Positions 1 through 15,514 of a stretch of DNA of 64,000 nucleotides are shown here, piece after piece. The DNA is from Alcanivorax jadensis T9 (GTDB lineage: Bacteria; Pseudomonadota; Gammaproteobacteria; Pseudomonadales; Alcanivoracaceae). The stretch's first letter is position 1. Every line of letters starts with the position of its first letter. The position numbers were made by a program, and so were the translations under genes. The stretch is taken from assembly GCF_000756655.1 (NCBI RefSeq), contig NZ_ARXU01000001.1, forward strand, positions 310,001 through 374,000. The letters are read 5' to 3'. Below the pieces are notes generated by a model. The model saw only the letters and a program-made list of their open reading frames with translations. It was not told where the DNA came from and made no database searches.

Positions 1-161
1 GCCAGTGACGGCGCCCAGATCAGCCAATACAGCACCACGAAAACCGCCACCCCGGCGAGCACTTTGAGTACCGTTTTTTCGCGGGCTTCTCGGCTGGCAT
101 ACCATTGCTCCAGCTGCGACCAGCGTTCGGAAGCCAGTTTCTTCAATTCAGCAGATGTCAT
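1..161 (-). CDS. gspM: Type II secretion system protein GspM (N-terminal fragment, cut by window edge)
   Basis: Only the first 53 or so codons are visible because the gene runs off the left edge. They give a short polar cytoplasmic N-terminus and then one hydrophobic segment at about residues 34-50 (VLAGVAVFVVLYWL), the layout of GspM, a single-pass inner-membrane protein that pairs with GspL in the secretion platform. The ATG at 161-159 overlaps the gspL stop codon (ATGA), which indicates translational coupling. Position right after gspL supports the call more than sequence does, because GspM is poorly conserved. It is the last visible gene of the gsp cluster; gspC, gspD and gspN would have to lie outside the window. 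Confidence 0.85.
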   Translation of the reverse strand, partial: MTSAELKKLASERWSQLEQWYASREAREKTVLKVLAGVAVFVVLYWLIWAPSL

Positions 162-1315
162 CCTGGCTGCTCCACCTTGATCCGCGCACTGACGCCCTGT
201 GCGCCGTTGCGATAATTGGCAATGGAAGCATTGCCTCCCTGCTTCCTTATGGCATTCTGCAGGGCTTCAAGCTGGGCATAATCCTTGGCACCCACATCCA
301 CCAGCAACACATTCTGACGCTGATCATACTGGAGCCGCTTGGGCTCCATTTTCATGTCCTTGAGTACCTGCGCTACCGGCGCCAGCAGCGGGAAAAAGGC
401 CGCTCCGCCACCATCAGCACCGCCACCGAGGCGGGCCAGGCGGCCCTGGAACTGGCGATTCAGTGCAGAGGTTGCCTTGTCTCCGGGAAATAACTGCTCG
501 TAACGATTCTTGGCTTGCGCCAGGGCGGCATCCGCCGCCTGCTGGTAACGCCATTGCTGCACCCAAACAGCCACTACAGCAACCAGGAAGACGGCCGCGG
601 CCAGATAGGCAACCGGACGCCAGGGCCCAAGCAGTGCACTTTCCCTGCGGGTCTGGCGTGGCATATAGGGGCCGGTAAGCAGCTCCTGGCCATGGCGATG
701 GCGCAGGTCAGTAAACAGGGCTTGCAGGTCGACCTGACGGGCCTGATCCAGGCTATCGCCTAACAGGGGAGCAAACGCTTCCTGCTGGTCTTCGTCGATG
801 ACCAGACCCTGCTCCCGGTCAATTAACAACAGTTGTTGGCCATTCCCCAGGTCTGCAGTTAAAGGCAGCATGGCCTGCAGGCAATCCGCATCGACCTGTA
901 AAGAGGCCAGGTGGGCACCGGCCTCCCCAGCCCATTGCTTGAGGTTGGTGATCAGTTCGCGACGCACCGCCGACACCTGATAGTCGTCGCCACTACCCTT
1001 GCGGGAAACGAACCAAAGGTCATCCGGATTATCGAGCAGCTGCTCTTCCAGCAAATAAGGAAGCACGCGCTGGAGGTGACGCGCCTGTTTCCGGCTGAGA
1101 GTGACATGGGTCAGCCTTGCACAGGAAACACTGACAACCACAGAGACGTTGCTGCCCTGACAGGCAGCCAGCGCCTCACCCAGCGCAAGCCATTGTACGG
1201 TTTCACCGTTGCGGGACTGGTAAAGCACCGGGTTGTCCGGTTGCCATTCGGTTTCCCCGGCGCCGGCAAGGTAAATCAAGGGAGCATCTGCCACGCTAAT
1301 CCGTCCTTCCATCAT
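158..1315 (-). CDS. gspL: Type II secretion system protein GspL
   Basis: The 385-residue protein has a cytoplasmic N-terminal domain of about 230 residues with the actin-like fold expected of GspL, one transmembrane segment at about 234-253, and a periplasmic ferredoxin-like C-terminal domain. GspL recruits the ATPase GspE to the inner membrane and contacts GspM. Two ATG codons lie at the start (1315 and 1312), so the N-terminus is uncertain by one residue. The gene is 49 bases downstream of gspK and overlaps gspM. Length matches the family. The call rests on domain layout and its fixed place between gspK and gspM. Confidence 0.93.
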   Translation of the reverse strand: MMEGRISVADAPLIYLAGAGETEWQPDNPVLYQSRNGETVQWLALGEALAACQGSNVSVVVSVSCARLTHVTLSRKQARHLQRVLPYLLEEQLLDNPDDLWFVSRKGSGDDYQVSAVRRELITNLKQWAGEAGAHLASLQVDADCLQAMLPLTADLGNGQQLLLIDREQGLVIDEDQQEAFAPLLGDSLDQARQVDLQALFTDLRHRHGQELLTGPYMPRQTRRESALLGPWRPVAYLAAAVFLVAVVAVWVQQWRYQQAADAALAQAKNRYEQLFPGDKATSALNRQFQGRLARLGGGADGGGAAFFPLLAPVAQVLKDMKMEPKRLQYDQRQNVLLVDVGAKDYAQLEALQNAIRKQGGNASIANYRNGAQGVSARIKVEQPG

Positions 1316-1364
1316 TATTCTTCAGCATGCACCACGCTCTTGCGGGGCTACATCTGGCTTCTAA

Positions 1365-2414
1365 TCAGGTACCGGCAGCATTGTAGAAGGGATTGCATGC
1401 CGGTTCGAGTGGCGTCAGCAGTGGACTGACCTGACGACTGAACACGGAGGTTGTTTTCCCTTGGCCATTGGCACGATGAAGGCGGCTGACCAGGCGACTG
1501 AGCTGGCCGTCCACTTCCACATCTACCATTACCTGAAAATACTCACTGCTGACACCCAATAGACTGGCAAGATCATTCTTCACATTGGCTGAAAGGCCAT
1601 TGAAAGCCCCCAGCTGCATCATACTGTTTATATCGGTGATGGGCTCCTCCTTGCGCGCCTGCAGTACTGCCTGTACTGCTGCGGCGCCAGCCACGTCACC
1701 AATAACGGCATCCAGCACTTGCGGCGGCGCAGTATTCACATTCAACGTGGTGCCCAAGGGTAACGCAGTGAACAGCCCCCACACCATGGCGTCCTTGGGC
1801 TGGTCTGTTAGGCGGAAACTAAGCAACGCGCGCAACTCGGATTCGTGCGCCGCCGGCATATTAGGTGTGCGGCGGCTACGGTATTCCGGATCTTCCGCCC
1901 CTTCCACATTGTCGACAATATTGTTGCTGTCCAGCCAGTCGGCCATTTCATTGGCCAGCCGCGAAGCATTGGCCTCACCGGGAAAGGTCTGCTCGATCAG
2001 GCGGGTCAATTGAGAGATGGCCTGGGGGCTGCGAATAAACTCATCACCGGAAGCAGTGATCAGCCAGTTCAGATTAAAGCGACCCTGCAGATCCTGAACG
2101 CTGGCACTGAGCATGGCATCGTCGTAGGGCGTCGGCGGCAACTGCACTGCCCACTGCTCCTCGACACAGTCGTCCACCATGGCATTGTTATTGCGATCAT
2201 CATCCAGATCATCGATCAGCCCCTGCTGGGCCACCACTTCAGCCGCCATGGCGTATTGATAGCGTTTATCCCATTGCAGCAGGTTATCTGCCCGGGTCAG
2301 GAACCGATCCTGGCGGAAGATAATTTCCAGGGTAATGGTGGTCAGAATAGCGAACAGCATCAGCACGATAATCAGTGCCACCCCCTGCTGCTTTCTTCGA
2401 GGCGTCAGGCCCAT
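1365..2414 (-). CDS. gspK: Type II secretion minor pseudopilin GspK
   Basis: With the ATG at 2414 the product has 349 residues, close to the family norm. It starts with a basic leader and the prepilin site QQG|VALIIVLMLF, cleaved after Gly11. The mature protein lacks the Glu at position 5 found in other pseudopilins, which is the hallmark of GspK, the tip subunit of the GspI-J-K complex. The frame stays open 48 codons further upstream inside gspJ, but that extension would bury the leader, so the 2414 start is preferred. It overlaps gspJ by 10 bases. An Asp/Asn-rich stretch follows the N-terminal helix (DLDDDRNNN) and could bind a metal; that is a guess. Confidence 0.93.
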   Translation of the reverse strand: MGLTPRRKQQGVALIIVLMLFAILTTITLEIIFRQDRFLTRADNLLQWDKRYQYAMAAEVVAQQGLIDDLDDDRNNNAMVDDCVEEQWAVQLPPTPYDDAMLSASVQDLQGRFNLNWLITASGDEFIRSPQAISQLTRLIEQTFPGEANASRLANEMADWLDSNNIVDNVEGAEDPEYRSRRTPNMPAAHESELRALLSFRLTDQPKDAMVWGLFTALPLGTTLNVNTAPPQVLDAVIGDVAGAAAVQAVLQARKEEPITDINSMMQLGAFNGLSANVKNDLASLLGVSSEYFQVMVDVEVDGQLSRLVSRLHRANGQGKTTSVFSRQVSPLLTPLEPACNPFYNAAGT

Positions 2415-3043
2415 GGATTCACCACCGTACGGTAAAACCGGTGAATGGTATCGCCATCTTCCAGCTCGATTTCCACCTCGATGCTTTTCGGTAACCGTTG
2501 CTGCCAGACCGGAACGGCAGCCAGGGCCACGTCCGGCCACAGTTCCAGCCATTGCCACTCGCCCTGTGGAGTCTTGTCCAGATAACGCACCGTAAAACGG
2601 GCCACGTCGTCGATCAGCACGTCTTCCTGATATTCGGTGGCCACATTGGTATCAAGCACCGGCCAGTAACGGCGATAGAGTTTGCCATCTTCCAGGGTAT
2701 AGATAACCCGCTGCATTTCGCTGCGCTGTCGCAGCCCGAAGGGGTTGGACCAACCCAGCCGGGTAAATTCCACATAATTGTCACGCCCGATGATGGCGGG
2801 CTGCGGGTCACCATAGGGGTCGCGGACCGGACGACTGATCAGCTGTTCGAAATCCAGGGTCAGGTAGGTGATGGCGCGCTGGTTGCGTTCCATGATGCTA
2901 GCGTTGGCATTGAGTTGCTCACGGCCCTGCAGCGCACTGCCGAGGAAACTGGCTACCCACACATAGATAAACGCAAAGATGGCGATAGTGACAACCATCT
3001 CCAGCAGCGTGAACCCTTTGTTCGCAGAGCGCCCTGTGATCAT
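2405..3043 (-). CDS. gspJ: Type II secretion minor pseudopilin GspJ
   Basis: The 212-residue protein begins with the prepilin leader ANKG|FTLLEMVVTIAIFAF, cleaved after Gly10 by the prepilin peptidase GspO (not in this window), with Glu5 of the mature protein present. The hydrophobic helix is followed by a globular beta-rich domain, as in GspJ. It is expected to sit with GspI and GspK at the tip of the periplasmic pseudopilus. Its start overlaps the end of gspI by four bases and its end overlaps the start of gspK, so I, J and K are translationally coupled. Confidence 0.93.
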   Translation of the reverse strand: MITGRSANKGFTLLEMVVTIAIFAFIYVWVASFLGSALQGREQLNANASIMERNQRAITYLTLDFEQLISRPVRDPYGDPQPAIIGRDNYVEFTRLGWSNPFGLRQRSEMQRVIYTLEDGKLYRRYWPVLDTNVATEYQEDVLIDDVARFTVRYLDKTPQGEWQWLELWPDVALAAVPVWQQRLPKSIEVEIELEDGDTIHRFYRTVVNPWA

Positions 3044-3420
3044 GACGCCGGCTTGCCGATCAAGCTAGCCAAGCGGTAGGCCATACCACCCTTGTCGTCA
3101 CCCTGAAGCGGGCCCACTTCGATATCCACACGCCGGGTATCCGGGTAAGGGCCTTCTGAAATGGTGGTTTCTATCCACCAGTCACGGCCGTTACGGGTGA
3201 CTTCACTGTCGGAGGTGCCCGTGGTTGGCCATTGCTGGTACACCTGCATTTCCACCAGTTTGTCAGACGCCACCAGGAACCCCAGATGGGTCTCGTTGAT
3301 ATTGGTGTAAGCCCTGGCAGTGGCGCCCATGCTCTGGCCGAGAGTGACCATAACCAGCGCCAGAATGGACACGGCGACCAGCACTTCGACCAACGTAAAA
3401 CCCCGCTGTCCACTCCTCAC
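3040..3420 (-). CDS. gspI: Type II secretion minor pseudopilin GspI
   Basis: This 126-residue minor pseudopilin has a very short leader (GQRG|FTLVEVLVAVSIL), cleaved after Gly7, and Glu5 in the mature N-terminus. The size fits GspI, the smallest of the tip pseudopilins, which nucleates the GspI-J-K complex. The start codon is GTG at 3420-3418, and it overlaps the TGA of gspH (GTGA), so translation is probably coupled. No upstream ATG in frame gives a better leader. The identification is firm from the prepilin motif plus gene order. Confidence 0.92.
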   Translation of the reverse strand: MRSGQRGFTLVEVLVAVSILALVMVTLGQSMGATARAYTNINETHLGFLVASDKLVEMQVYQQWPTTGTSDSEVTRNGRDWWIETTISEGPYPDTRRVDIEVGPLQGDDKGGMAYRLASLIGKPAS

Positions 3421-4046
3421 TGTTCGCTCTCCTCGTCATCCCTGGCGTCGGGATCACTGAACTGGCCCAGGGCGGACACACGCAAACGTTGCTCGGCTTC
3501 CAGATCATCATAGGCACGAAGCGTCAGTGTCAGCGGCGAGACCTCACCACTGGGGAAGAAAAACACCTGGGGAAAAACCGCCTCGTCCTGATCGGAGTCG
3601 TCGCTTTGTTCGCCATCAAGAAATTCCTTGCCCGACCCGGCCATCACATCGTCCTGAACCAGGTTTTCGGCCACCTCACTCAGGCTGGCCTGATCTTCAC
3701 CCAGATCATCCAGCTCCCAGACCAGTTCCAGTGAAGGCGGCAGTTTGTGAGCCTTCAGCGCCGTATCATCCACGGGCAGAAAATCACCCTCGATTCTGTC
3801 GTAGGCCAGTGGGGTCCAGCCGGTGGCTTCCAGTCGCAGGGCCAGCAATTGACCGGAGAAAAGGCTGCGCTCATTGAGTAGTGCCAAGGTGTCTTCCAGG
3901 CGGGCGGCTTCCTCCTCGAGCTGTCGGTCGTCGCTGGTCCAGTTGCCCTGGGACACCAGCACCGCCGTGAGCAGCCCCATCAGCATCACCACCACCATGA
4001 TTTCCAGCAGTGTGAATCCAGCCTGACCGACGGGGCGTAGGCGCAT
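3417..4046 (-). CDS. gspH: Type II secretion minor pseudopilin GspH
   Basis: Starting at the ATG at 4046, one base after the gspG stop, the product is 209 residues with the prepilin site GQAG|FTLLEIMVVVMLMG and Glu5. The frame is open 16 codons further upstream, but that would start inside gspG and lengthen the leader. GspH is a minor pseudopilin thought to join the tip complex to the GspG shaft. The middle of the protein carries an unusually acidic segment (around EQSDDSDQDE) not typical of the conserved core; this could be a species-specific loop. The C-terminus is also acidic (DPDARDDEESEQ). Confidence 0.9.
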   Translation of the reverse strand: MRLRPVGQAGFTLLEIMVVVMLMGLLTAVLVSQGNWTSDDRQLEEEAARLEDTLALLNERSLFSGQLLALRLEATGWTPLAYDRIEGDFLPVDDTALKAHKLPPSLELVWELDDLGEDQASLSEVAENLVQDDVMAGSGKEFLDGEQSDDSDQDEAVFPQVFFFPSGEVSPLTLTLRAYDDLEAEQRLRVSALGQFSDPDARDDEESEQ

Positions 4047-4047
4047 G

Positions 4048-4473
4048 TTACTGAATGTCGCGCCAGTTGATGTCCGCATCAGAACCTTCACCACCCTCTA
4101 CCCCATCGGCGCCAAGGGAAAGCAGATCGAAAGGCCCTTCGACACCGGGACTGATATAGACATAGTCGTTATTCCAGGCATCCTCGGGTACGCTGGACAG
4201 ATAACCACCGTCAGGCCATTTGCGGGCAGACGCCGGGCGCTCAACCAATGCATTGAGCCCTTCTTCACTGGAGGGGTAACTGCCGTTGTTGAACTTGTAG
4301 AGATCCAGCTGCTGGACAATCTTGCCCATGTTGGCCTTGGTCAAGTCCACTTTAGCCCCTTCACCCTGGCCGATAACATTGGGCACGATAACTGCGGCCA
4401 GCAGGCCGATAATGGCCACAACCACCATAATTTCCAGCAGGGTAAACCCCGACATGGCGCCTTTCGTTTTCAT
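4048..4473 (-). CDS. gspG: Type II secretion major pseudopilin GspG
   Basis: The 141-residue protein has the classical major pseudopilin features: leader with Gly9|Phe cleavage (SGFTLLEIMVVVAIIGLL), Glu5, the Pro of the N-terminal helix (VIVPNVIGQ), and a C-terminal region rich in Gly and Asp (GADGVEGGEGSDADI) that matches the calcium-binding loop of GspG. GspG polymerises into the periplasmic pseudopilus that pushes substrates through the GspD secretin. It lies 8 bases downstream of gspF. Length and motif order agree with the family. Confidence 0.97.
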   Translation of the reverse strand: MKTKGAMSGFTLLEIMVVVAIIGLLAAVIVPNVIGQGEGAKVDLTKANMGKIVQQLDLYKFNNGSYPSSEEGLNALVERPASARKWPDGGYLSSVPEDAWNNDYVYISPGVEGPFDLLSLGADGVEGGEGSDADINWRDIQ

Positions 4474-4481
4474 TCTTCCAC

Positions 4482-5702
4482 CTATCCGGCTAGTAAATTG
4501 TTCATCTGCATGATGGGCAACATGACCGACAGCACGATAAGCACCACCACACCCGCCATGAACAGCAGCATGATGGGGCCCAGCAGGCCCACCATAGTAC
4601 TGACAGTGCTACTCAGTTCCCGTTCCTGGTAATCCGCCGCCCGGGTGAGCATATGATCCAGCTCACCGCTGGCTTCGCCACTGGCAATCATCTGTACCAG
4701 CATGGGCGGAAAATACCCACTGGCATCCAGGGCCCGACTCAGGCTACCGCCCTCGCGAACCTTGGCGGCGGCATTCTTGACCGCGTTTCTTACCTCAAGG
4801 TTACCGACCACCTGGGCGGCAATAAACAGGGCATCCACCAGGGGGACCCCGGAACGACCGAGAATCCCAAGAGTGCTGGCGAGGCGGGCACTGTCGGCGG
4901 CCCTCAACATGGTGCCCACCATCGGCATGGTGACCAGCCTGCGGTGCACCCGCAAACGGAATGCGGGGTCGCGCATCGCCCGCATGAAAGCCACAATCGC
5001 GACTATAATCAGCAGCATCAGCAGCCAGCCCCAGTCGCGGGTAAAGTCGCTGAGAGCCATAACAATACGGGTCAATAACGGTAAAGACTGGTCCCGTCCT
5101 TCGAACACAGCCACCAGTTTGGGCACCACGAAGGTCATCATCAGCATGATGACAATGGTGGCAAACACCATGATAAAGGCTGGGTAGATCATCGCCTGAG
5201 CGACCGAGCGCCCGGTGTCATGGCGGGTCTCCAGGTAATCCGCCAATTGCTCAAGGACCTGTTCCAGGTGACCGCTCTGCTCGCCTGCCGCCACGGTGGC
5301 ACGGTACATTTCCGGGAAAGCTCGAGGAAAAGATTCGAAGCTGTGGGCAAGACTGAAGCCCTCGCGCACCCTGGCGCGAACCGCCAGGATGATCCGTTCG
5401 ATACGGTCATTGGCAGCCTGCTTGGCCACCGCCGAAAGGGCCTGCTCGACAGGCAGGCCGGATTTGAGAAGCGTGGCCAGTTGACGGGTCAACAATGCCT
5501 GCTCGGCGCCATTGAGCTTGCCGGAACCGGAAAAACGCCCCAGGCCGGCAGAGCTGCTGCTGTCCTGAGCCTCGTTGACCTCAATGGGAACCCAGCCCTT
5601 GTCACGGAGCTGTTGGCGTACCTGGCGAGCACTGTCGGCTTCCAGGGTGCCTTTCTTGATTTTGCCCCTGTGATCCAGGGATCGGTATTCGAATGCAGGC
5701 AT
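4482..5702 (-). CDS. gspF: Type II secretion inner-membrane protein GspF
   Basis: The 406-residue polytopic membrane protein contains two repeats of the T2SSF domain, each with cytoplasmic helices ending in a membrane helix. The N-terminus MPAFEYRSLDHRGKIKKG is the typical GspF/PilC start. Hydrophobic segments are seen around residues 170-195, 222-245 and 375-400. GspF is the platform protein that couples GspE ATP hydrolysis to pseudopilus assembly. The gene lies 15 bases after gspE and 8 before gspG. Length equals that of well-studied GspF proteins. Confidence 0.96.
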   Translation of the reverse strand: MPAFEYRSLDHRGKIKKGTLEADSARQVRQQLRDKGWVPIEVNEAQDSSSSAGLGRFSGSGKLNGAEQALLTRQLATLLKSGLPVEQALSAVAKQAANDRIERIILAVRARVREGFSLAHSFESFPRAFPEMYRATVAAGEQSGHLEQVLEQLADYLETRHDTGRSVAQAMIYPAFIMVFATIVIMLMMTFVVPKLVAVFEGRDQSLPLLTRIVMALSDFTRDWGWLLMLLIIVAIVAFMRAMRDPAFRLRVHRRLVTMPMVGTMLRAADSARLASTLGILGRSGVPLVDALFIAAQVVGNLEVRNAVKNAAAKVREGGSLSRALDASGYFPPMLVQMIASGEASGELDHMLTRAADYQERELSSTVSTMVGLLGPIMLLFMAGVVVLIVLSVMLPIMQMNNLLAG

Positions 5703-5717
5703 GGATCAGGGGTCCGG

Positions 5718-7220
5718 TCAGTCTTCGCGGGTCACACGCAATACTTCTTCGACACTGGTGTGTCCACCCAGTACTTTACGCCAGCCATCCTCGCGGATGC
5801 CACTGGTGAGGGTACGGGCGTGTCGGTTCAATGCCAGCTCGCCTGCCTGGTCATGGATCAGCTGGCGCATGGTTTCATCAATCAGTACCAACTCGTATAT
5901 ACCAGTTCGCCCACGGTAGCCCTGCTGATTACAGGCATCACAACCGTTTGGATGATAGAGCGTACAGGATTCCCCTTCCGGCAACCCTATCATTCTCAAC
6001 TCGCTAGCACTGGGCTGGTACGGCGTCTTGCAGTCATCACACAAGACCCTCACCAGCCGCTGTGCCAGCGCGCCAAGCAGGGAGCTGGAGAGCAGGAAGG
6101 GCTCGATCCCCATATCCTGCAGCCGGGTCATGGCGCCCACGGCAGTATTGGTATGTAGCGTAGAGAGCACCAGGTGACCAGTGAGTGATGCCTGCACGGC
6201 AATTTCAGCGGTTTCCAGGTCACGGATTTCACCCACCATCACCACATCCGGATCTTGGCGAAGAATCGCGCGCAGCCCGCGAGCAAAGGTCATATCCACC
6301 TTGGTGTTGACCTGAGTCTGGCCGATACCTTCGAGTTGATACTCGATGGGATCTTCCACAGTGAGAATGTTACGGGTGCTGTCGTTGAGATCCGCCAGTG
6401 AGGCGTACAGCGTGGTGGTCTTACCGGACCCGGTAGGCCCGGTGACCAGAATAATACCGTGGGGCTTGTGAATCAGCTCGCGCATGTGCTGGTCGCAGAC
6501 ATCGCCCATGCCCAGATGGGACAGCTGTAGTCGCCCTGCCTGCTTGTCGAGCAGACGCAATACCACACGCTCACCATTGCTGGAGGGCATGGTGGACACC
6601 CGCACATCCACGTCCCGGCCACCGATTCTCAGGGAGATACGGCCGTCCTGGGGAATCCGTTTCTCGGCAATGTCCAGCCGTGCCATTACCTTGATACGCG
6701 AAACCAGTAGTGGCGCGAGCTCCCGTTTCGGGGTGAGTATTTCACGCAATACCCCATCGACCCGCATGCGAACTACCAGGCGGCGCTCGAAGGTTTCAAT
6801 ATGAATATCGGAGGCATCCTCGCGGATCGCTTCCTGCAACAGGGCGTTGATCAGCCGGATAATCGGCGCATCATCTTCCTGTTCCAGCAAATCAGAGGTT
6901 TCCGGCAATGAATCCGCGAGACTGGCCAGATCCAGTCCTTCCAGATCACCGGCCGCCTCCGCGGCAGCGCCGCGCTGCTGCTCATAGGCGATGGCCATGG
7001 CAGAGGTAAAAGCAGCATCATCCATGGGTACCAGCGACGGCAGCCGACCTATATAACGCTGGACCTCACTAAGCGCGGACAGCGGCACATCCTTTCGGTA
7101 GCACAACTCGCGGTGGCCATCCTTTTCTCGCAACAGCACACCATAGCGCCGGGCAAACCCATAAGGCAGCAGCGACGGGGGAAGGTCTTTATTTTCCGGC
7201 GTCTCGATGTGCTCGCTCAT
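5718..7220 (-). CDS. gspE: Type II secretion ATPase GspE
   Basis: The 500-residue cytoplasmic ATPase powers the secretion system. Visible motifs are Walker [10 protein letters not shown] (about 261-269), an Asp box and Walker [10 protein letters not shown] (about 326-334), the His box STLHTNTA, and a zinc-binding pair of CxxC motifs (CDDC about 394-397, CDAC about 427-430). The N-terminal 80 residues form the N1E domain that binds GspL. It begins the gsp gene run and starts one base after the stop of the REC-PAS-PilZ gene, so it is very probably co-transcribed with the signalling genes upstream. There is no room for a separate promoter in that gap. Confidence 0.97.
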
Positions 7221-7221
7221 T

Positions 7222-8358
7222 TCAGTATTTGTCCATCAGATTCTCGATCACATTCGCCGTGATCTCTGTCAGTTCCATGAACTGGAAACCCACCTGGTAT
7301 TCCCCGGGAGCATCCAGAATTTCCGACCATACCACCCGGGCATCGAAGCTGATGGTGTTTACCCCGGCAATCTGATCCGGCAACACCATCCCCATATGCA
7401 ATACTTCGCCATGGGGAAGCTCCCGACGGGTAAACAGCTTGAAGCCATCCAGGCTGATATTCATCAGACGGCCCACGTTACCACCGGTACTGCGATCGAA
7501 CACCACCATTTCCCGAAACAGCTTCTTGCGCGGGTGGCGGCGATGATCCTTGCGGCTGTCTCTCACATCATTTTCGTCGTCAGCCCTACGCAACACAATG
7601 ACGACACCGGTAAAATTGCCGGAATCATCGTTGATGGCGTTGCCACGCACCGACAAGGCTACCAGTCCGTCTTCATCCTGTGTGTACAGGCTGTGTTCGT
7701 TTTTCCAGCCCTCACCTTGCTGACAGGCCTGACGCAACGGCGAGTCCTTCCACTCCCAGCGACGCTTGCCGGTATCATCATTGAAGATCAGCGCCGCAAT
7801 ATCCTTACCTACCAGTTCATCGCGAGGGCGGCGCAGCAGCGCACAGGCTGCCTCATTGCAGAAAGACACCTTGCCGCGGGCATCAGCCCCTATCAGAGCC
7901 TCGCCGAGGGCGTGTAGCAGGCGTTCGTTTTCGTCCTTCAGGCGTTTCATCTGTACCACAGCCTGCTGCAGTTTCTTTCGCTGGCGATCCAGCTCAAGAA
8001 ACACATTGACCTTGGCTTCCAGTATTTTCTGGTCGATGGGCTTGAACAGATAGTCCACCGCGCCACATTCATAGCCCTTGAACACGTATTTCTGCTCTTT
8101 GGAGAGGGCGGTAACGAAAATGATGGGGATATGGCGGGTTTTGTTGTTCTTGCGCATCAGCTCGGCGACTTCAAAGCCGTCCATATCCGGCATTTGCACA
8201 TCCAGCAACACCAGCGCGAAATCATATTTCAGAGCCAGCGAGAGAGCCTCGTTACCTGATTGTGCCATAACGAGGTTACGCCCTTCCCCATCGAGAATTG
8301 CTTCAAGGGCGATAAGATTTTCCCTGTGGTCATCCACAACCAAAATGTTTTGCTTCAT
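7222..8358 (-). CDS. Response regulator with REC, PAS and PilZ domains
   Basis: With the ATG at 8358 the protein has 378 residues. Residues 1-120 form a receiver domain with the phosphorylation site Asp53 ([11 protein letters not shown]) and the KP motif. Residues about 125-145 are a coiled coil, about 145-265 look like a PAS domain, and about 280-378 form a PilZ domain. The PilZ part shows the c-di-GMP signature: an RxxxR motif (RRHPR) followed by NISLDG. The protein therefore probably joins phosphorylation to c-di-GMP binding. The open frame extends 25 codons upstream into cheB but lacks a better start. It is 7 bases after cheB and 1 base before gspE. Its receiver is very like that at 8944-9426. 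The output target is unknown; GspE or GspL is a reasonable guess from position only. Confidence 0.85.
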
Positions 8359-8365
8359 AGGTCTA

Positions 8366-8947
8366 CTACCCTGGAACCTGTTCTGCCAGAAAGGGCCCGA
8401 TTGCTTCAAGATCGAGCACTCTGGAAACCGCACCTGTTTTTATTGCCGCTTCGGGCATGGCCGGTGCTTCTGCACTTACCGGTGACTGGGCAATGGTGAA
8501 CCCGCCACGACGGTGAATATAGTCAATTCCTTTTGCACCATCTTCATTGGCGCCGGTAAGAATAACCCCGACAAGCTGTTTTCCGTAAACCGCCCCCGCG
8601 GAAAGAAACAGCTCGTCTACCGATGGGCGAGAAAAGAGTACAGCCCTTCCAGCAGAAAAAGCCAACGTCCCATCCTCTTCTACCAGCATGTGGTACCCCG
8701 GTGGGGCCACATAGACACAACCTGGTTGTATTTCTTCCTTGTCTTCTGGCGCGATCACCGGCAGTTGGCAATAGCGGGCCAGCAACCACGGCAAACGATT
8801 TTCCGCGCTGGCATGTTGATGCTGAACCAGCAAGATCGCAGCCGGAAAGTCGGCCGGCAACGCCGACAAGATGCGAGTATACGCATTAAGGCCTCCCCAG
8901 GAGGCCCCCATGACAATCGCCTTTACCGGCCCGATTCTGTTTATCAC
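8366..8947 (-). CDS. CheB-type protein-glutamate methylesterase, stand-alone catalytic domain
   Basis: The 193-residue protein is a CheB methylesterase domain without a receiver domain. The catalytic triad is visible: Ser16 (GASWGG), His43 (VQHQH) and Asp136 (GANEDGA). The oxyanion-hole region and VYVAPPGYHM are also conserved. CheB removes methyl groups from, or deamidates, glutamates of chemoreceptors. No chemoreceptor, CheA or CheW gene is present nearby. Its start overlaps the stop of the receiver gene by four bases, so that receiver may act as its separated regulatory half. It is translated 7 bases ahead of the REC-PAS-PilZ gene. Confidence 0.92.
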   Translation of the reverse strand: MINRIGPVKAIVMGASWGGLNAYTRILSALPADFPAAILLVQHQHASAENRLPWLLARYCQLPVIAPEDKEEIQPGCVYVAPPGYHMLVEEDGTLAFSAGRAVLFSRPSVDELFLSAGAVYGKQLVGVILTGANEDGAKGIDYIHRRGGFTIAQSPVSAEAPAMPEAAIKTGAVSRVLDLEAIGPFLAEQVPG

Positions 8948-9426
8948 GATGAGTTACCGCTGCCCTCCCCGCGTTGGGTTTTTCCGGCTTCGTAGGCGGC
9001 ACGATGAGCCTGGGCTTCGCGCAGTTTCTCCTGCAATTCGCGCCGCTGTTTGTCCAGACTGAGAAAGAAATCCACTTTGCTCTTTAGGATCAATGGATCC
9101 AGGGGTTTAAACAGGTAATCCACAGCCCCAGCCTGGTAGCCCTTGAATACGTATTTCTTTTCCTTGCTGATGGCAGTCACAAAAATAATGGGGATGGTCT
9201 GCGTATCCTTGCGCTGACGCATCAATTCTGCAACTTCAAAGCCATCCATGCCTGGCATCTGCACATCCAGAAGCACCAGAGAAATATCTTCCTTAAGCAG
9301 AACCTTTAAGGCTTCCTGACCGGAATGCGCCTTGATCAGGGTGCGCCCCTCGCCTTCCAGGACTGCCTCCAGCGACACCAGGTTGGCGGGTTGGTCATCC
9401 ACGAGTAGCAGCTTCTGCACTATCAT
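8944..9426 (-). CDS. Single-domain response regulator with C-terminal coiled coil
   Basis: The 160-residue protein consists of one receiver domain (about 1-120) with acidic pocket VDD (9-11), phosphorylation site Asp54 (LLDVQMPGMDG), conserved Thr and Lys (DYLFKP), and a short charged helical tail (about 120-150) rich in Arg, Glu and Gln. There is no DNA-binding or enzymatic domain. The sequence is close to the receiver of the REC-PAS-PilZ protein, which suggests a tandem duplication with cheB placed between the copies. It follows cheR by 13 bases and overlaps cheB by 4. It may deliver phosphoryl groups from the hybrid kinase or regulate CheB. Confidence 0.88.
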   Translation of the reverse strand: MIVQKLLLVDDQPANLVSLEAVLEGEGRTLIKAHSGQEALKVLLKEDISLVLLDVQMPGMDGFEVAELMRQRKDTQTIPIIFVTAISKEKKYVFKGYQAGAVDYLFKPLDPLILKSKVDFFLSLDKQRRELQEKLREAQAHRAAYEAGKTQRGEGSGNSS

Positions 9427-9439
9427 TGGTTTTCTCTAG

Positions 9440-10303
9440 TCATGCGTGGTGAAGTAATTGACGCTTGCGGAAAATTCGCAGCGGTGTGTTGATCACATCA
9501 AAGGTCTCTTCCTGACCACTGAAACGCAGGCTTTCCTTGGTGCCGAGGCAGAGATAGCCGCCCATGTCCAGGCTGTCACTGAACAGTCGAATCACTCGGG
9601 CCTGCAGGGCGCGATCAAAGTAGATCAGCACATTGCGGCACAGGATAACGTGCATTTCACCAAAAACCTGATCCGTTGCCAGGTCATGGTCAGCAAAAAC
9701 GATATTGCGCTTGAGGCGCTGCTCCATAATCACGCTGTCATAGCGCGCGGTGAAGTAGTCAGACAGTGAGTGTCGCCCCCCTGCCCTGCGATAATTGTCA
9801 CCATACTGCTTTACCGCCTCAATGGAATAGATCCCTTTTTTGGCGGAGGCCAGCACATTCTTGTCGATATCGGTGGCATAGATCATGGCGCGGTCGTAGA
9901 GCCCTTCTTCCTCCAGAAGGATGGCCATGGAATAAATTTCCTCGCCGGTTGAGCAACCGGCATGCCATATCTTGATAAAGGGAAAGGTTTTCAATACCGG
10001 CACCACGTCCTCACGGAAGGCCCGGTAGAACTCCGGATCCCGGTACATCTCGGTCACATTGACGGTGAGATCGTTGAGCAGGGTCACGAAGAACGGCCGG
10101 TCCCGCAGTACCTTGTCGGTCATTTCCATGATCGAGGCGAAGCCGGACATGGTCATCCGATGCATGACCCGGCGACGAATGGAGGCCTTGCTGTAGGAGC
10201 GAAAATCGTACCCGTACATCTGGTAGATAGCCTCCAGCAACAGCCGGATCTCGATATCCTCCACATTGATCTCATCATCATCGATGGGGTACGGCTCAGC
10301 CAT
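9440..10303 (-). CDS. CheR-type protein-glutamate O-methyltransferase
   Basis: The 287-residue protein has the CheR N-terminal helical domain (about 15-75) and the C-terminal SAM-dependent methyltransferase domain. Motifs seen are the SAM-binding loop WHAGCSTGEE (about 113-122), ATDID, and CRNVLIYFD, which is diagnostic for CheR. It uses S-adenosylmethionine to methylate glutamates, normally in chemoreceptor coiled coils. No chemoreceptor is encoded in the window, so its substrate is unknown. The gene begins 18 bases after the hybrid kinase gene and is followed after 13 bases by the receiver gene. Confidence 0.93.
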   Translation of the reverse strand: MAEPYPIDDDEINVEDIEIRLLLEAIYQMYGYDFRSYSKASIRRRVMHRMTMSGFASIMEMTDKVLRDRPFFVTLLNDLTVNVTEMYRDPEFYRAFREDVVPVLKTFPFIKIWHAGCSTGEEIYSMAILLEEEGLYDRAMIYATDIDKNVLASAKKGIYSIEAVKQYGDNYRRAGGRHSLSDYFTARYDSVIMEQRLKRNIVFADHDLATDQVFGEMHVILCRNVLIYFDRALQARVIRLFSDSLDMGGYLCLGTKESLRFSGQEETFDVINTPLRIFRKRQLLHHA

Positions 10304-10321
10304 TTATTGATCCTCCAGGGC

Positions 10322-13300
10322 CTACTTGTGGAGCCAAACCCGCAACAGCGAGGTGAGTTTTGCCATATCAATCGGCTTGGAGCAATAATCGTTGGCGCCC
10401 GCCTGAATACATTTGGCCCGGTCGTCCTTCATGGCCTTGGCGGTGAGTGCCAGCATCGGCAGTTTCTGGAAGCGGCCCTGCTCGCGGATATGCGTCATGG
10501 CCTCATAGCCATCCATCTCCGGCATCATGATATCCATCAGCACGATATCCATATCCGGGTGCTCTTCCAGAACATCCAGTGCTTCTCGACCATTGTTGGC
10601 AATGGTGATATCGAAACCCAGCTCTTCAAGCTGGGCCGACAGCGCATAGATATTGCGCATATCATCATCCACCAGCAGTAGCTGCTTACCTTCGAAAATA
10701 TCGTCACGATGCTCGATGGCATCTGTGCTGGTGCGGCGGTTGGCCGGCAACGTGGACTCCAGCCAGTGCAGGAACAGGGACGCTTCATTCAGCAGCCGCT
10801 CATGAGAGCGCTCTGTCTTGAGAATGATCCGGTCAGCGTATTTGCGCAGCTTCGCTTCTTCTTCCCGGGTCATGTCTTTGCCGGTGTAAATGACCACCGG
10901 AACGCTGTCATAGCTTTCACTGGCATGAAGGGTTTCCAGCAGTTCGAAACCGCTCATGTCTGGCAGAGTCAAATCCAGAATCATGCAGTCGAACACGGTT
11001 TCACGCAGGGCTTTCAGCGCCTCCTCACCACTGGTTGCAGCCGTGATTTCCACCCCTTTCTGGTCAAACAGCTCGCGAATACTCTCGTGCTGGATCTCGC
11101 TGTCTTCCACCACCAGCAAACGGCGCACATTGGTTTCGATGGCACCTTCAATCTTGGCAAAGGCAGAGAGGATGTCATCCTGCTTGGCCGGCTTGGTAAG
11201 GAAATCGATGGCACCCAGTTCGAGGGCTTTCTTGCGCTCATCACGTCCCGACAGAAAATGCACAGGAATATCCTTGGTGCGCGGGTCTGCCTTGAGTTTT
11301 TCCATCACTTCCCAGCCATCAATGCCCGGCAGGCCGATATCCAGAATGATGGCACTGGGGCGGTAGTGGCTGGCGTATTCAAGTGCTGCCTCCCCGTCCG
11401 AACAGATATTCCCTTCCAGCCCATAGTCGGCGGCCAATTCCAGCAAGACATTGGCGAATTCGCTGTCATCCTCGACGATCAGTACGGTCTTTTCGCGTAC
11501 AACGAAATCATCCCGGGCTGTTTCCGCATGCGTCAGTGGTGCGGTATGCGCTTCCGCATTCGTGCCAATATCTGCTTCCTGGGTCGCACCGCTGGCTGAC
11601 GCTTCCATGGACTCCTCGGAGCCTTCTGGCAGATACAGCATGAAGGTAGAACCCGTGCCTTCCCCGTCACTGTAAAGGCTGATCTCGCCGCCCAGCAGGC
11701 GTGCCAGCTCCCGGGAAATGGTCAGCCCCAGGCCGGTACCGCCATATTTCCGGCTGGTAGTCCCATCTGCTTGCTGGAAGGCCTCGAAGATCAGCTTCTG
11801 TTTTTCCGACGCAATGCCAGTCCCAGTATCGGTCACAGCAAACTTGATCGTCTGGTCACGCAGCAACTGGCGAGAAGGCAGTGATTCGTCTTCCTCCGGG
11901 CGGGCAATGGTCAGCGTCACCGAACCTTGCTCGGTGAATTTCAGGGCGTTGGAAAGCAGATTCTTGATGATCTGCTCCAGGCGCTGACGATCGGTGTAGA
12001 AGTAATCGGGCAGGTTGTCGCCCAGATTGACGTGAAAATCCAGATTGCGACTTTCCGCCACATGGGCAAAGTTGCGCCGGAAATGCTCACTAATTTCCTG
12101 CGGTGACAGGTCATCAATGATGACATCCATCTTGCCTTCCTCGATCTTGGAAATATCGAGGATATCGTTGATCAGGCTGAGAAGATCCGAGCCGGCAGAA
12201 TGGATTACCTGGGCGTGTTCTACCTGTTTATCATCCAGATTGCCTTTCTTGTTCTGGCCCAGCGCATTGGAGAGAATCAGGATCGAGTTGAGCGGCGTCC
12301 GCAGTTCGTGGCTCATGGTGGAGAGGAACTCGGATTTGTACTTGGAGGACATTTCCAGTTCGCGGATCTTGTCTTCCAGCTCGTGGCGCAGCAGCTCAAG
12401 CTCGTCATTCTTCTGCGCCATCTCACTCTTCTGTTCAGTAAGCAAACGCGCCTGGGCTTCCAGCTCTTCGTTGGTAACGCGCAATTCTTCCTGCTGAGCC
12501 TGCAAACTCTCTTCAGACGCGCGCAAGGCCTGGGTCTGTGACTCCAGCTCCTCGTTGATCGCCTTGAGTTCTTCCTGCTGCTGCTGCAGGCGTGACTCCG
12601 AAGCAGACAGCTCCATGGCCTGCTCTTCCAGGTCTTCATTGACCTGGGCCATCTCTTCTTTCTGTCGCTCAAGAGCGACAGCCTGCTCCTGGGTCTGTTC
12701 AAGCATTTGCGCGAGACGCATGCGGCTTTGCACGCTATGCACAGACACCGCGATTACGGACACGCATTGTTCCAGGAATGTCAGGTCTTCGTCACTGAAT
12801 TCACGGAAAGCGCCGATTTCGAGCACGCCCTTGATCTCATCATCATGGACAACCGGCATCACCATCACATTGCGAGCCTGCCCGGCGCCGGTTCCGGAAG
12901 CGATACTGATGTAATCCTCCGGCACCTGCTCCAGGAGGATACTTTTGCGTTCCAGTGCGCACTGGCCAACCAAAGACTCGCCCAGCTTGAAGGTGTTGGC
13001 CAGATGCTTGCGCCGCTGCATGGCATAGGAACTACTCAGGGTGAGCTGCTCGGTGGATGGGTCGAAGCTGTAAAACGCCCCCACCTGAGCTTCCAGTACC
13101 GGCACCAGGAAACTGAGCATGTTGTTGCCCAGCTGCTCAAAGCTCATCTCACCACGCATGCGGTTGTTGAGCTCAGCCAGATGATTCTTGATGGTTTCCT
13201 GGCGGCGGTCCTCGGTGTGGCGCTTTATCAGCGAGTCACGCATCTTGCGAATGGCGTGCAGCAGGTGGCCAGTCTCGTCACGGCCTCCCTTTTCAATCTT

Positions 13301-13993
13301 GGTATCCCACTTGCCATTGGCAATATTATCGGCCGCGTTCACTGCGCCTTCCAGTGGCAAGGTAATGGCGCGTGTGACACGCAGGGCAATCAGGGCCAAT
13401 AAGGTAAAGGCAACCAGCCCAAGGAACAGGCCGATTTTCTGGGTACTGAGATTATCGGAACGACTGGAATTGAGCGTGTCGCGAAACGCTTCGTAGCGTT
13501 GCTTCTCAAACGCTTTCTGGTGGGTCTCGTAGGCATCCTGCAGGCTGCGAACATGGCTGATGCGCTGATACAGATCATCCGAAGCCGTATCGTTGTCAAT
13601 CAGGCTGCGCGCCAGAGTGGTGGCTTCACCAATGTAGGCACTGAAACTACTGCGCAAGTCTTCAACGCTGCCCGACAGGCTGGGGTCGGTGCGACGGATA
13701 TCCGCCAGCCGTTGCTCGAACTCGGCGGCACGACTCTGCGCTTCCTGTAAGAGATCCGGATCGGCCTGGGTGATGGCCGCAATAAAGGACTCACTGATGG
13801 CAATGAAATCCACATTGTTGGCGTTAACCAGCTCCAGAACCGGGAAGTCCTGACTCTCGATCCGTTTCAGATGATCAATATTGGTTTCGGCAATGTAGAA
13901 GCTGTAGGCCGCATAGACCACAAACAACACAATACCCAGTCCGGCCACAGACAGAATCTTCAGCCGCACAGACAGGTTCTGGAACCAGTTCAT
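10322..13993 (-). CDS. Membrane hybrid histidine kinase with HAMP, GAF, coiled coil and three receiver domains
   Basis: The 1223-residue protein has transmembrane helices at about 12-33 and 186-205 flanking a helical periplasmic sensor, a HAMP linker (about 206-260), a GAF domain (about 285-425), a long coiled coil (about 428-552), a HisKA domain with phospho-accepting His562 (MSHELRTPLN), an HATPase domain (N-box about 675-685, DTGTGIA 722-728, GGTGLGLT 751-758), and three receivers with Asp885, Asp1007 and Asp1154. The coiled coil repeats a QxEEL...NEELExQ pattern. It starts at ATG 13993 behind a GAGAGGG ribosome site and heads the signalling/gsp gene run. The sensed signal cannot be read from the sequence. 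Receivers may form a relay to the two separate response regulators. Confidence 0.93.
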   Translation of the reverse strand: MNWFQNLSVRLKILSVAGLGIVLFVVYAAYSFYIAETNIDHLKRIESQDFPVLELVNANNVDFIAISESFIAAITQADPDLLQEAQSRAAEFEQRLADIRRTDPSLSGSVEDLRSSFSAYIGEATTLARSLIDNDTASDDLYQRISHVRSLQDAYETHQKAFEKQRYEAFRDTLNSSRSDNLSTQKIGLFLGLVAFTLLALIALRVTRAITLPLEGAVNAADNIANGKWDTKIEKGGRDETGHLLHAIRKMRDSLIKRHTEDRRQETIKNHLAELNNRMRGEMSFEQLGNNMLSFLVPVLEAQVGAFYSFDPSTEQLTLSSSYAMQRRKHLANTFKLGESLVGQCALERKSILLEQVPEDYISIASGTGAGQARNVMVMPVVHDDEIKGVLEIGAFREFSDEDLTFLEQCVSVIAVSVHSVQSRMRLAQMLEQTQEQAVALERQKEEMAQVNEDLEEQAMELSASESRLQQQQEELKAINEELESQTQALRASEESLQAQQEELRVTNEELEAQARLLTEQKSEMAQKNDELELLRHELEDKIRELEMSSKYKSEFLSTMSHELRTPLNSILILSNALGQNKKGNLDDKQVEHAQVIHSAGSDLLSLINDILDISKIEEGKMDVIIDDLSPQEISEHFRRNFAHVAESRNLDFHVNLGDNLPDYFYTDRQRLEQIIKNLLSNALKFTEQGSVTLTIARPEEDESLPSRQLLRDQTIKFAVTDTGTGIASEKQKLIFEAFQQADGTTSRKYGGTGLGLTISRELARLLGGEISLYSDGEGTGSTFMLYLPEGSEESMEASASGATQEADIGTNAEAHTAPLTHAETARDDFVVREKTVLIVEDDSEFANVLLELAADYGLEGNICSDGEAALEYASHYRPSAIILDIGLPGIDGWEVMEKLKADPRTKDIPVHFLSGRDERKKALELGAIDFLTKPAKQDDILSAFAKIEGAIETNVRRLLVVEDSEIQHESIRELFDQKGVEITAATSGEEALKALRETVFDCMILDLTLPDMSGFELLETLHASESYDSVPVVIYTGKDMTREEEAKLRKYADRIILKTERSHERLLNEASLFLHWLESTLPANRRTSTDAIEHRDDIFEGKQLLLVDDDMRNIYALSAQLEELGFDITIANNGREALDVLEEHPDMDIVLMDIMMPEMDGYEAMTHIREQGRFQKLPMLALTAKAMKDDRAKCIQAGANDYCSKPIDMAKLTSLLRVWLHK

Positions 13994-14240
13994 TCAGATA
14001 GCCCTCTCGCCTTTCCGGCTTTTTGTTCTCAGTGCCCCCCGAAAGGGCTAAGCCTGAATCTGCGATCAGATTGCAGAAGCAGGCTAAGACTAAAGTGTGA
14101 GGCTACCAGAAAGCCTGGCAACACGACAATAAAGTGCCTGAAGTTGCGTAACCAGGTGGTTGATTTGGCTGGAATTATTTTCGACTAGCGGTGATGGCAA
14201 ATGATACTGGAGATGGAGGGTATAGCAGGAAGGGTAAAGC

Positions 14241-14326
14241 TGGTGCCCGGGGCGGGACTTGAACCCGCACGACCAAAGGTCAACGGATTTTAAGTCCGTT
14301 GCGTCTACCAATTTCGCCACCCGGGC
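14241..14326 (-). tRNA. tRNA-Leu (anticodon UAA)
   Basis: An 86-base class II tRNA with acceptor stem GCCCGGG/CCCGGGC, anticodon loop CTTAAAA (UAA), a long variable arm, T-loop GGTTCAAGTCC, and an encoded CCA end. It is the last gene of the Gly-Cys-Leu cluster and is followed downstream by the hybrid kinase gene on the same strand after about 250 bases. Confidence 0.97.
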
Positions 14327-14348
14327 GGTGACCGTGCAGGTCAATAAT

Positions 14349-14422
14349 TGGAGGCGCGGGTCGGAATCGAACCGGCGTTAACGGAGTTGCAGTCCGCTGC
14401 ATAACCACTCTGCCACCGCGCC
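14349..14422 (-). tRNA. tRNA-Cys (anticodon GCA)
   Basis: A 74-base tRNA with acceptor stem GGCGCGG/CCGCGCC, anticodon loop CTGCAAC (GCA), T-loop GGTTCGATTCC, discriminator U as usual for tRNA-Cys, and an encoded CCA end. It is the middle gene of the three-tRNA cluster. Confidence 0.97.
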
Positions 14423-14441
14423 TTTAAACTGTTTACCAAGA

Positions 14442-14468
14442 AAAAACCTCGGCGGAACCGAGGTTTTT
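14442..14468. terminator. Perfect hairpin with U-tract between tRNA-Gly and tRNA-Cys
   Basis: An 11-base perfect stem (AAAAACCTCGG / CCGAGGTTTTT) with a 5-base loop lies in the 53-base spacer between tRNA-Gly and tRNA-Cys. It has terminator form on both strands. If it works fully on the minus strand, tRNA-Cys and tRNA-Leu would get little transcription from the upstream promoter; partial termination or use as a processing signal are alternatives. Confidence 0.6.
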
Positions 14469-14475
14469 GAAAACT

Positions 14476-14551
14476 TGGAGCGGGAAACGAGATTCGAACT
14501 CGCGACCCCAACCTTGGCAAGGTTGTGCTCTACCAGCTGAGCTATTCCCGC
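14476..14551 (-). tRNA. tRNA-Gly (anticodon GCC)
   Basis: A 76-base tRNA with acceptor stem GCGGGAA/TTCCCGC, anticodon GCC within CTTGCCAAG, D-arm AGCTCAGCTGGTAGAGC, T-loop GGTTCGAAT-type, and encoded CCA. It is the first gene of the tRNA cluster, directly behind a strong promoter. The order tRNA-Gly, tRNA-Cys, tRNA-Leu after pgsA matches the glyW-cysT-leuZ locus of Escherichia coli. Confidence 0.97.
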
Positions 14552-14589
14552 TTTTTTCTGCCCCGAATCATGCGTCGTTGCGGGGAAGA

Positions 14590-14617
14590 ATTCTACTCAT
14601 CGCCCTCCCACTGTCAA
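14590..14617 (-). promoter_or_regulatory. Sigma70-type promoter of the tRNA cluster
   Basis: A consensus -35 TTGACA (14617-14612) and a -10 TAGAAT (14595-14590) are separated by 16 bases on the minus strand, followed by a GC-rich discriminator (CTTCCCCGC). This is the usual form of a stable-RNA promoter under growth-rate control. It lies about 40 bases before tRNA-Gly. Confidence 0.8.
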
Positions 14618-14713
14618 GCCGGGCCTGATTGTTTTTTCTGATTTTTCAGCACTTTGACTAAAAAATCCCCGATTCGCACCGCCCTCGGCACCAGGCAGGC
14701 TGCCACGGCCGAC

Positions 14714-15313
14714 TCAGTCCCCGCTTTTCAGTAACTCGGGGGCTGCCGCGCGCAGATAGGAGCCCATGGACCAGAGGGTCAACGCCGTAGCCAGATACAG
14801 CAGGCCATAACTGAGCCACAACCAGGGGGTCATGACGATATCGCCAAAAGCATCGAAACCAGGCTTCTGGGCCAGCAACAGGGTGATGGCTGTCATCTGG
14901 GTCACCGTCTTGATCTTGCCGAGCTGACTTACCGCCACTCTGCCCCGCTGCCCCAGTTCTGCCATCCACTCACGCAGGGCAGACACTGCAATTTCCCGGG
15001 AAACGATCACCATGGCGGGCACCGCCAGCCATGCCGTGGCATGAATCTGTACCAGCATCACCAGGGCCACGCCAACGATCAGCTTGTCCGCCACCGGGTC
15101 CAGAAAGGCCCCCAGGGGGCTGGTCTGATTCAGGCGCCGTGCCAGGTAGCCGTCCAACCAGTCGGTCACACCCGCAGCCAGAAACAGGGCCGCCGCACAC
15201 ATGTCGCTCCATTTGAACGGCAAATAGAACACCAGAACCAGAACGGGAATTGCCAATACACGAATCATGGTCAGAATATTGGGCAAATTCAGGATCGGGC
15301 TCGTTTTCTGCAT
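14714..15313 (-). CDS. pgsA: CDP-diacylglycerol--glycerol-3-phosphate 3-phosphatidyltransferase
   Basis: This integral membrane enzyme makes phosphatidylglycerol-phosphate, the committed step to phosphatidylglycerol and cardiolipin. The CDP-alcohol phosphotransferase motif is complete: DG-x2-AR-x8-G-x3-D-x3-D (from DWLDGYLARR through GAFLDPVADK). Several hydrophobic helices follow. The ATG at 15313 gives 199 residues beginning MQKTSPILNLPN, which aligns with known PgsA starts; the frame also has a TTG at 15328 that would add five residues. It lies between uvrC and the tRNA cluster, the same order as in Escherichia coli. Confidence 0.95.
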   Translation of the reverse strand: MQKTSPILNLPNILTMIRVLAIPVLVLVFYLPFKWSDMCAAALFLAAGVTDWLDGYLARRLNQTSPLGAFLDPVADKLIVGVALVMLVQIHATAWLAVPAMVIVSREIAVSALREWMAELGQRGRVAVSQLGKIKTVTQMTAITLLLAQKPGFDAFGDIVMTPWLWLSYGLLYLATALTLWSMGSYLRAAAPELLKSGD

Positions 15314-15514
15314 AGGTACTACCGCCAAAATAAGGGCCTGTTGATACGCTGCGCGGCCGTCGCATACCTGAAAAAAGCATGGGAAGCGGCACGAACGCAG
15401 GGCATGGCCAGCCTCAATACCCGCGGAACTGGAACACAGCGGGCACTAACAGGCCGAAAGGACCAGTATAACGGAAAGCCGACTGTGACTCATTGCCGAT
15501 TTTGCGACCAGCGC

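Follow-up and report, generated by a model that had tools for sequence, protein, structure and literature searches.

A conserved kinase, CheR, CheB and PilZ gene module in one apparent operon with type II secretion genes in the Alcanivorax family

Gene order at the locus and across the family

The window analyzed here is a stretch of 64,000 nucleotides from Alcanivorax jadensis T9. On its minus strand, five signalling genes run into the genes of a type II secretion system (T2SS). They encode a hybrid histidine kinase, a CheR-type methyltransferase, a stand-alone receiver (REC), a CheB methylesterase domain, and a protein with REC, PAS, and PilZ domains that we call RPZ. The order from 5' to 3' is three tRNA genes, a largely conserved block of 50 bases, the kinase, cheR, receiver, cheB, and RPZ genes, and then gspE-F-G-H-I-J-K-L (Table 1). 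The T2SS operon was identified by a GspE equivalog match and by the ordered F to L genes (Pfam and NCBIfam). An earlier note on this DNA gave the successive gaps from the kinase gene to gspE as 18, 13, -4, 7, and 1 bases, and our recomputation returned identical values. These figures assume that RPZ starts at an internal ATG at 8358; the mechanical open reading frame (ORF) reaches back to 8433. The start of cheB overlaps the lone receiver gene by 4 bases, and the RPZ/gspE junction reads TGA-A-ATG. The CheR of the window is 98 to 100% identical to the nearest named Alcanivorax records.

We fetched the gspE neighbourhoods of 46 genomes of the Alcanivorax/Alloalcanivorax family, all of which have gspE, and mapped their genes. 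In 44 of the 46, cheR, the receiver gene, cheB, and the RPZ gene lie directly 5' of gspE in the same order. The kinase gene is also present in 43 of these 44 loci, in one of which (L160) it is cut at the contig end. In the remaining locus, L156, the contig ends inside cheR, with the kinase position off the contig. This bears out the conserved adjacency with gspE that the earlier note had marked for checking, and a set peculiar to one strain was rejected on the same count. As a control, we scanned 21 genomes of the order, one per family. Three of them (G036, G037, and G049) had no GspE-grade match and were excluded. None of the other 18 had a CheB domain within 10 kb of a GspE-grade match on the same contig, although some of these matches lie near contig ends. 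Seven genomes chosen for other reasons were also scanned and stand outside this control. With the order kept in 44 of 46 genomes of the family, against 0 of 18 controls with a CheB domain near GspE, the linkage is more than chance.

The two sides of the module behave differently. Among the 37 loci with a kinase gene and at least 1.9 kb of upstream sequence, the upstream tRNA/pgsA/uvrC neighbourhood is missing in 12, from three genera. The junction between the module and gspE is intact in all 37, including those 12. Contiguity is kept even where identity to the module proteins of the window falls as low as 50% for CheB and 65% for the kinase.

In two family genomes, G023 (86% complete) and G033 (99% complete), the fetched 19-kb stretch contains none of the five genes. 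RPZ alone was sought genome-wide, and its best matches (E values of 5.6e-14 in G023 and 1.3e-15 in G033) were far weaker than in module-bearing genomes; for the other four genes the search covered the 19-kb stretch. G033 keeps uvrC, pgsA, and the three tRNA genes, followed by gspE about 0.4 kb after tRNA-Leu, and further ORFs of fitting size follow gspE, gspF, and gspG. This arrangement is best read as a block loss of the module, and the five signalling genes thus appear to behave as one unit. Since gspE, gspF, and gspG persist in both genomes, the module would be an accessory controller. The gsp genes of G023 come after prpF and aconitase genes (L145:9710-13612), so that the T2SS locus stands in a different neighbourhood.

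We listed no promoter-like site on the minus strand from 8433 to 7220. One weak terminator-like stem was listed inside cheB (minus strand, 8664-8641), and positions 1-15600 hold 9 terminator-like sites, fewer than in shuffled sequence (mean, 14.2). The earlier note had also claimed that the last gap leaves no room for a promoter. This holds within the genus of the window, where the spacing between RPZ and gspE is -1 to 3 bases in 17 of 17 loci, but not in other genera, where it ranges from 1 to 116 bases and is at most 60 in 22 of 27 loci. The five signalling genes and the gsp genes probably share one transcript. A candidate promoter/operator for the whole operon is the block 5' of the kinase gene, which is mostly conserved in the 17 genus loci (TTTATTG..G ... 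TTTCTG.TAGCCTCA...TTTAGTCTTAG). No terminator-like site was listed between tRNA-Leu and the kinase gene, and Rfam at gathering thresholds over positions 1-22000 returned tRNAs only, with no riboswitch or other leader RNA. A strong sigma-70-like site (11/12) lies at 14590-14617, just before the tRNA-Gly, tRNA-Cys, and tRNA-Leu genes.

Table 1. Features of the signalling and secretion locus in the window
Feature	Coordinates	Strand	Basis and remarks
tRNA-Gly, tRNA-Cys, tRNA-Leu	14241..14551	-	ARAGORN; upstream boundary, outside the module
Conserved block 5' of the hybrid kinase gene	14084..14133	-	17-locus genus alignment; candidate operon promoter/operator
Hybrid histidine kinase, 1223 aa	10322..13993	-	Pfam: HAMP-GAF-HisKA-HATPase-3xREC
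Kinase coil core, residues 458-516	12446..12622	-	Conservation; proposed CheR/CheB methylation region
CheR-type protein-glutamate methyltransferase, 287 aa, without receiver	9440..10303	-	Pfam CheR_N + CheR; motif columns conserved
Stand-alone receiver with helical tail, 160 aa	8944..9426	-	Pfam
CheB methylesterase domain alone, without receiver, 193 aa	8366..8947	-	Pfam
REC-PAS-PilZ protein (RPZ), 378 aa; proposed output regulator	7222..8358	-	Pfam
gspE, T2SS ATPase with N1E domain	5718..7220	-	TIGR02533, GSPE_N1E
gspF	4482..5702	-	Pfam T2SSF
gspG, major pseudopilin	4048..4473	-	Pfam T2SSG
gspH	3417..4094	-	TIGR01708; true start probably internal to the listed ORF
gspI	3040..3420	-	TIGR01707
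gspJ	2405..3043	-	TIGR01711
gspK	1365..2558	-	Pfam T2SSK; true start probably internal to the listed ORF
gspL	158..1315	-	TIGR01709

The hybrid kinase and the CheR/CheB pair

In the structure model of kinase residues 1 to 300, long helices form a four-helix-bundle sensor followed by HAMP (mean predicted local distance difference test score [pLDDT], 80.2; predicted template-modelling score [pTM], 0.54). The best fold matches of this model are an E. coli chemoreceptor unit (4e-4) and NarQ (6e-4), both at modest E values. The HisKA histidine H562 and the receiver aspartates D885, D1007, and D1154 are invariant in all 42 full kinases. Locus L160, with its cut kinase, was left out of the kinase statistics, and L147, because of an extraction artefact, out of the receiver statistics. 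Many gspK translations were likewise set aside, as the start chosen for them had spoiled them. The lone receiver has D10, D11, D54, T84, and K107 in 43 of 43 rows. CheB keeps S16, H43, and D136, which we take to be the catalytic triad, in 44 of 44, and the motif columns of CheR are conserved in the family alignment. A canonical chemotaxis cluster was considered and rejected, because Pfam found no CheA, CheW, or methyl-accepting receptor domain among the five proteins and the kinase is of the HisKA type.

The coil between GAF and HisKA has an unusually constant core. Over the 42 full kinases, the major-residue fraction of residues 458 to 516 is 0.972, and 43 of the 59 residues are invariant. 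HisKA reaches 0.962, and the flanking coil 0.762 and 0.807. Among the 40-residue blocks of the protein, residues 474 to 513 rank second in conservation. The core carries two QQEEL..NEELE repeats, and the kinase is its only strong match in its own genome. Coils usually tolerate substitution, so this near constancy points to specific recognition. We propose that the conserved coil is the site at which CheR and CheB would act.

A known kinase offers a parallel. According to the accessible text of PMC4574943, RsbK, of the RsbK-RsbM(-RsbY) system of Bacillus cereus, is a hybrid kinase whose S-helix is methylated by RsbM, the product of the rsbM methyltransferase gene, and its authors remark that RsbM lacks a paired methylesterase. 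The Alcanivorax set resembles this pair in having a HAMP-GAF-coil-HisKA-HATPase-REC kinase adjoining CheR, with no CheA or CheW in the set. It differs in adding CheB, the lone receiver, and RPZ, in the three receivers and longer coil of the kinase, and in its T2SS neighbours. The type is otherwise marked by a sigma-B output and a missing methylesterase, whereas here CheB is present and the neighbours are gsp genes. The sequence features thus suggest a methylated kinase of the RsbK/RsbM kind to which CheB has been added. Kinase-CheR loci of Neobacillus are probably RsbK/RsbM orthologues.

A different target for the two enzymes has to be weighed against this proposal: the substrates of CheR and CheB could be ordinary chemoreceptors in other parts of the cell, and not the hybrid kinase. 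Other chemosensory genes must exist, since CheR and CheB each have two more loci in the genome, and the CheR-linked kinases of Neobacillus have a different coil. Those further loci lie separately, however, and CheR adjoins hybrid kinases in distant taxa. The exact motif EELxxxNEELE was found in the kinase ORF at 27 of the 62 loci scanned, and CheR-bearing Neobacillus loci were among those without it. With the exceptional conservation of the coil in the family, these points make a chemoreceptor target distinctly improbable.

Among relatives in the order, the coil varies mostly in steps of 28 residues, or four heptads (148, 120, 92, and 64 residues; one coil has 155). Coils of 92 and 64 residues are found in the two kinases that have no CheR beside them, one of these kinases being on a 4.4-kb contig. 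That a shorter coil goes with a missing CheR is suggestive only. In the case on the short contig (L168:65-3989), which carries neither cheR nor cheB, a REC-PAS-GGDEF gene comes directly after the kinase gene, whose product has a coil of 64 residues.

RPZ as a predicted c-di-GMP receptor beside GspE

The receiver aspartate of RPZ, D53, is present in 44 of 44 sequences, and its PAS domain is variable. PilZ domains bind cyclic di-GMP (c-di-GMP) through the motifs RxxxR and [D/N]xSxxG. RPZ has both, as RxxxR and NxSxxG: R273, R277, N300, and G305 are conserved in 44 of 44 and S302 in 42 of 44. RPZ is thus a predicted c-di-GMP receptor. The RPZ model (mean pLDDT, 84.5; pTM, 0.43) contains REC and PAS domains, a long helix, and a C-terminal domain rich in strands. 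The first 50 Foldseek matches of the model were mainly receivers; a few were PAS proteins, and none carried the name PilZ. A phmmer search against solved structures gave receiver matches in the best 60 of 280. A second, receiver-only match (G000:C1:49110-49550) is 53% identical to the RPZ receiver, and similar matches were listed for many family genomes.

GspE scores 705 bits against TIGR02533 (cutoff, 630), and its best solved relative is 4pht, General secretory pathway protein E. Pfam found GSPE_N1E, T2SSE, and two weak NTPase matches in it and no T2SSE_N/MshEN. It therefore differs from the MshE and PA14_29490 ATPases, which bind c-di-GMP through their own T2SSE_N domain according to the accessible part of PMC4624772; the likeness is limited to c-di-GMP input to an ATPase of the T2SS/type IV pilus type. 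For GspE, any input from c-di-GMP would need to arrive in trans, and a trans-acting PilZ protein would be a reasonable source of it. Two GspE positions conserved in the 44 module genomes are changed in both module-less genomes, which is above 95% of module-bearing pairs (pair median, 0; 95th percentile, 0; maximum, 6; shared ancestry uncontrolled). These shared changes would count against an action of the module on secretion, and we did not use them as evidence because ancestry was uncontrolled.

One relative outside the family adds a further c-di-GMP protein to this arrangement. In a gammaproteobacterial metagenome-assembled genome (G070, locus L066), the order is kinase, cheR, REC, cheB, RPZ, a REC-PAS-GGDEF-EAL gene, gspE, and gspF. 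The inserted gene (L066:13154-15274) has GGDEF and EAL motifs and ends 115 bases before gspE. Its domain order is presumably that of FimX. In Xanthomonas citri, PilZ and FimX proteins are tied to the type IV pilus assembly ATPase PilB; PilZ binds the ND0-ND1 part of PilB, and the described interface lies on ND1, which is present in GspE (PMC8389850, accessible part). The Alcanivorax arrangement is alike in placing a PilZ-domain protein beside an ATPase of the same superfamily, and in L066 the REC-PAS-PilZ, REC-PAS-GGDEF-EAL, and gspE genes stand in a row. It is unlike in that its PilZ domain is joined to REC-PAS within one protein and carries the c-di-GMP motif, that GspE shows only N1E, and that the putative partner is a T2SS. 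By the features given in the same part of PMC8389850, RPZ falls outside the stand-alone PilZ proteins (PA2960/XAC1133 group) that bind an ND0-ND1 ATPase. In another relative (G102, L166:8360-11112), a stand-alone PilZ gene lies directly before a REC-PAS-GGDEF-EAL gene, as a PilZ/FimX-like pair.

Related modules and the link to secretion

We looked for relatives in 390 genomes of the order, drawn from a larger group (E value of 1e-55, four candidates scored per genome). Full-length RPZ outside the family was listed only in G070, G080, G102, and G161; a REC-PAS match cut by a contig end makes G186 a possible fifth. The module of G080 (the f36 relative) has no lone receiver ORF at the locus. Other order loci (L169 to L172 and L174) have kinase, cheR, and cheB genes followed by REC-PAS-GGDEF or REC-PAS-GGDEF-EAL genes, without gsp genes, and no cheB was seen at locus L175. 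These modules share the order of kinase, CheR, CheB, and REC-PAS protein with that of Alcanivorax, which differs in having a PilZ receptor in place of the output enzyme, an extra lone receiver, and the gsp linkage. Among the matches listed from distant taxa, kinase-CheR-CheB-REC sets occur in Pseudomonas, Rhizobium, and Desulfobulbaceae and kinase-CheR pairs in Neobacillus. We found no published description of this gene set among titles and abstract openings, with subscription journals outside the scope.

Our preferred interpretation, to which we give a probability of about 0.5, places a c-di-GMP-reading regulator of type II secretion under the control of an adapting kinase. In this scheme, the membrane-bound hybrid kinase would detect an envelope, surface, or chemical signal through its chemoreceptor-like four-helix sensor. 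CheR and CheB would add and remove methyl groups on the GAF-HisKA coil, and the set point would adapt in the way that S-helix methylation sets RsbK in B. cereus. Phosphate would pass from the kinase to the REC domain of RPZ, and the lone receiver could be a competitor, a shuttle, or a feedback element. RPZ would integrate phosphorylation, PAS input, and c-di-GMP and act on the T2SS encoded alongside, most likely on GspE/GspL or on assembly; it may alternatively dock to GspL or the platform rather than to GspE. By analogy, the module would work like RsbK-RsbM with an added CheB joined to PilZ/FimX control, and by the features compared it is a member of neither. We infer coil methylation, phosphotransfer, c-di-GMP binding by RPZ, and the machine as target from sequence. 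The earlier note had proposed joint control of secretion by phosphorelay, methylation, and c-di-GMP. The residues of the phosphorylation, methylation, and c-di-GMP sites are intact, in partial support of that proposal, in which the ATPase or pseudopilus assembly would be the target.

Several observations weigh against this interpretation. The Pfam scan found no Hpt domain in the kinase, through which phosphate would otherwise be expected to pass. The CheR-linked Neobacillus coils have 99 residues and a different sequence, and they barely exceed the 92 residues of a CheR-less kinase. In 5 of the 27 loci of other genera the gap between RPZ and gspE exceeds 60 bases and could hold a promoter. Two opposite-strand genes, one for an MscS channel, separate the module from gspE in G080, and the fetched stretch beside the RPZ module of the f17 relatives G102 and G161 has no gsp gene. 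All PilB proteins compared in the accessible text of PMC8389850 have ND0, which Vibrio GspE/EpsE lacks. The retention of gspE, gspF, and gspG in G023 and G033 without an adjoining module is a further point, and related modules without gsp genes speak against a strict version of the interpretation.

The linkage could also be a historical accident. The module may have landed once 5' of gspE and been kept there by vertical descent and promoter sharing, with no functional tie. A midpoint-rooted tree of CheR and kinase sequences (17 family and 11 other loci) groups the gsp-linked modules from three families in a single clade with a support of 97; G080 is on a long branch, and the f17 modules stand beside the clade. 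This fits a single origin of the gsp linkage before the family diverged, and a single clade is what a historical link predicts, as is the retention of gspE in the two module-less genomes. Yet contiguity has outlasted divergence of the proteins to 50% (CheB) to 65% (kinase) identity, changes fall on the upstream side only, and the key residues are kept in the rows examined. We therefore regard a purely historical link as improbable.

The main rival is that the module controls another surface process, such as type IV pili, adhesion, biofilm, or c-di-GMP pools, with the operon shared only for co-timing. In its favour, related modules lie apart from gsp genes in many taxa, and in the loci of the order that we examined the output is usually a REC-PAS-GGDEF(-EAL) protein. 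The genome also encodes two further ATPases of the GspE/PilB superfamily, and gspE, gspF, and gspG do without the module in two genomes. This rival accounts less well for a junction with gspE that survives rearrangement of the other side, and for gsp linkage or a close gsp neighbourhood in three families. We consider it rather unlikely.

To our knowledge, the control of T2SS activity after assembly is poorly understood. If an adapting kinase does act through RPZ on type II secretion, the T2SS would have a defined control system, an adaptive signalling module dedicated to it and encoded in what looks like one operon with it. This would also be a case of CheR and CheB both acting on a histidine kinase, and it would extend PilZ control, known from type IV pili, to a homologous secretion machine. 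A bolder form of the interpretation is possible, and we hold it tentatively: the T2SS would have an adapting sensor of its own, a kinase reset by CheR and CheB without arrays, and a phospho-gated PilZ receptor would couple c-di-GMP to a GspE that does not bind it. Secretion would then respond to changes in a signal rather than to its level. In the accessible part of a small-RNA study of A. dieselolei (PMC9788540), gspE-gspF is named as an alkane-metabolism-related operon, which makes contact with oil or alkanes a candidate signal.

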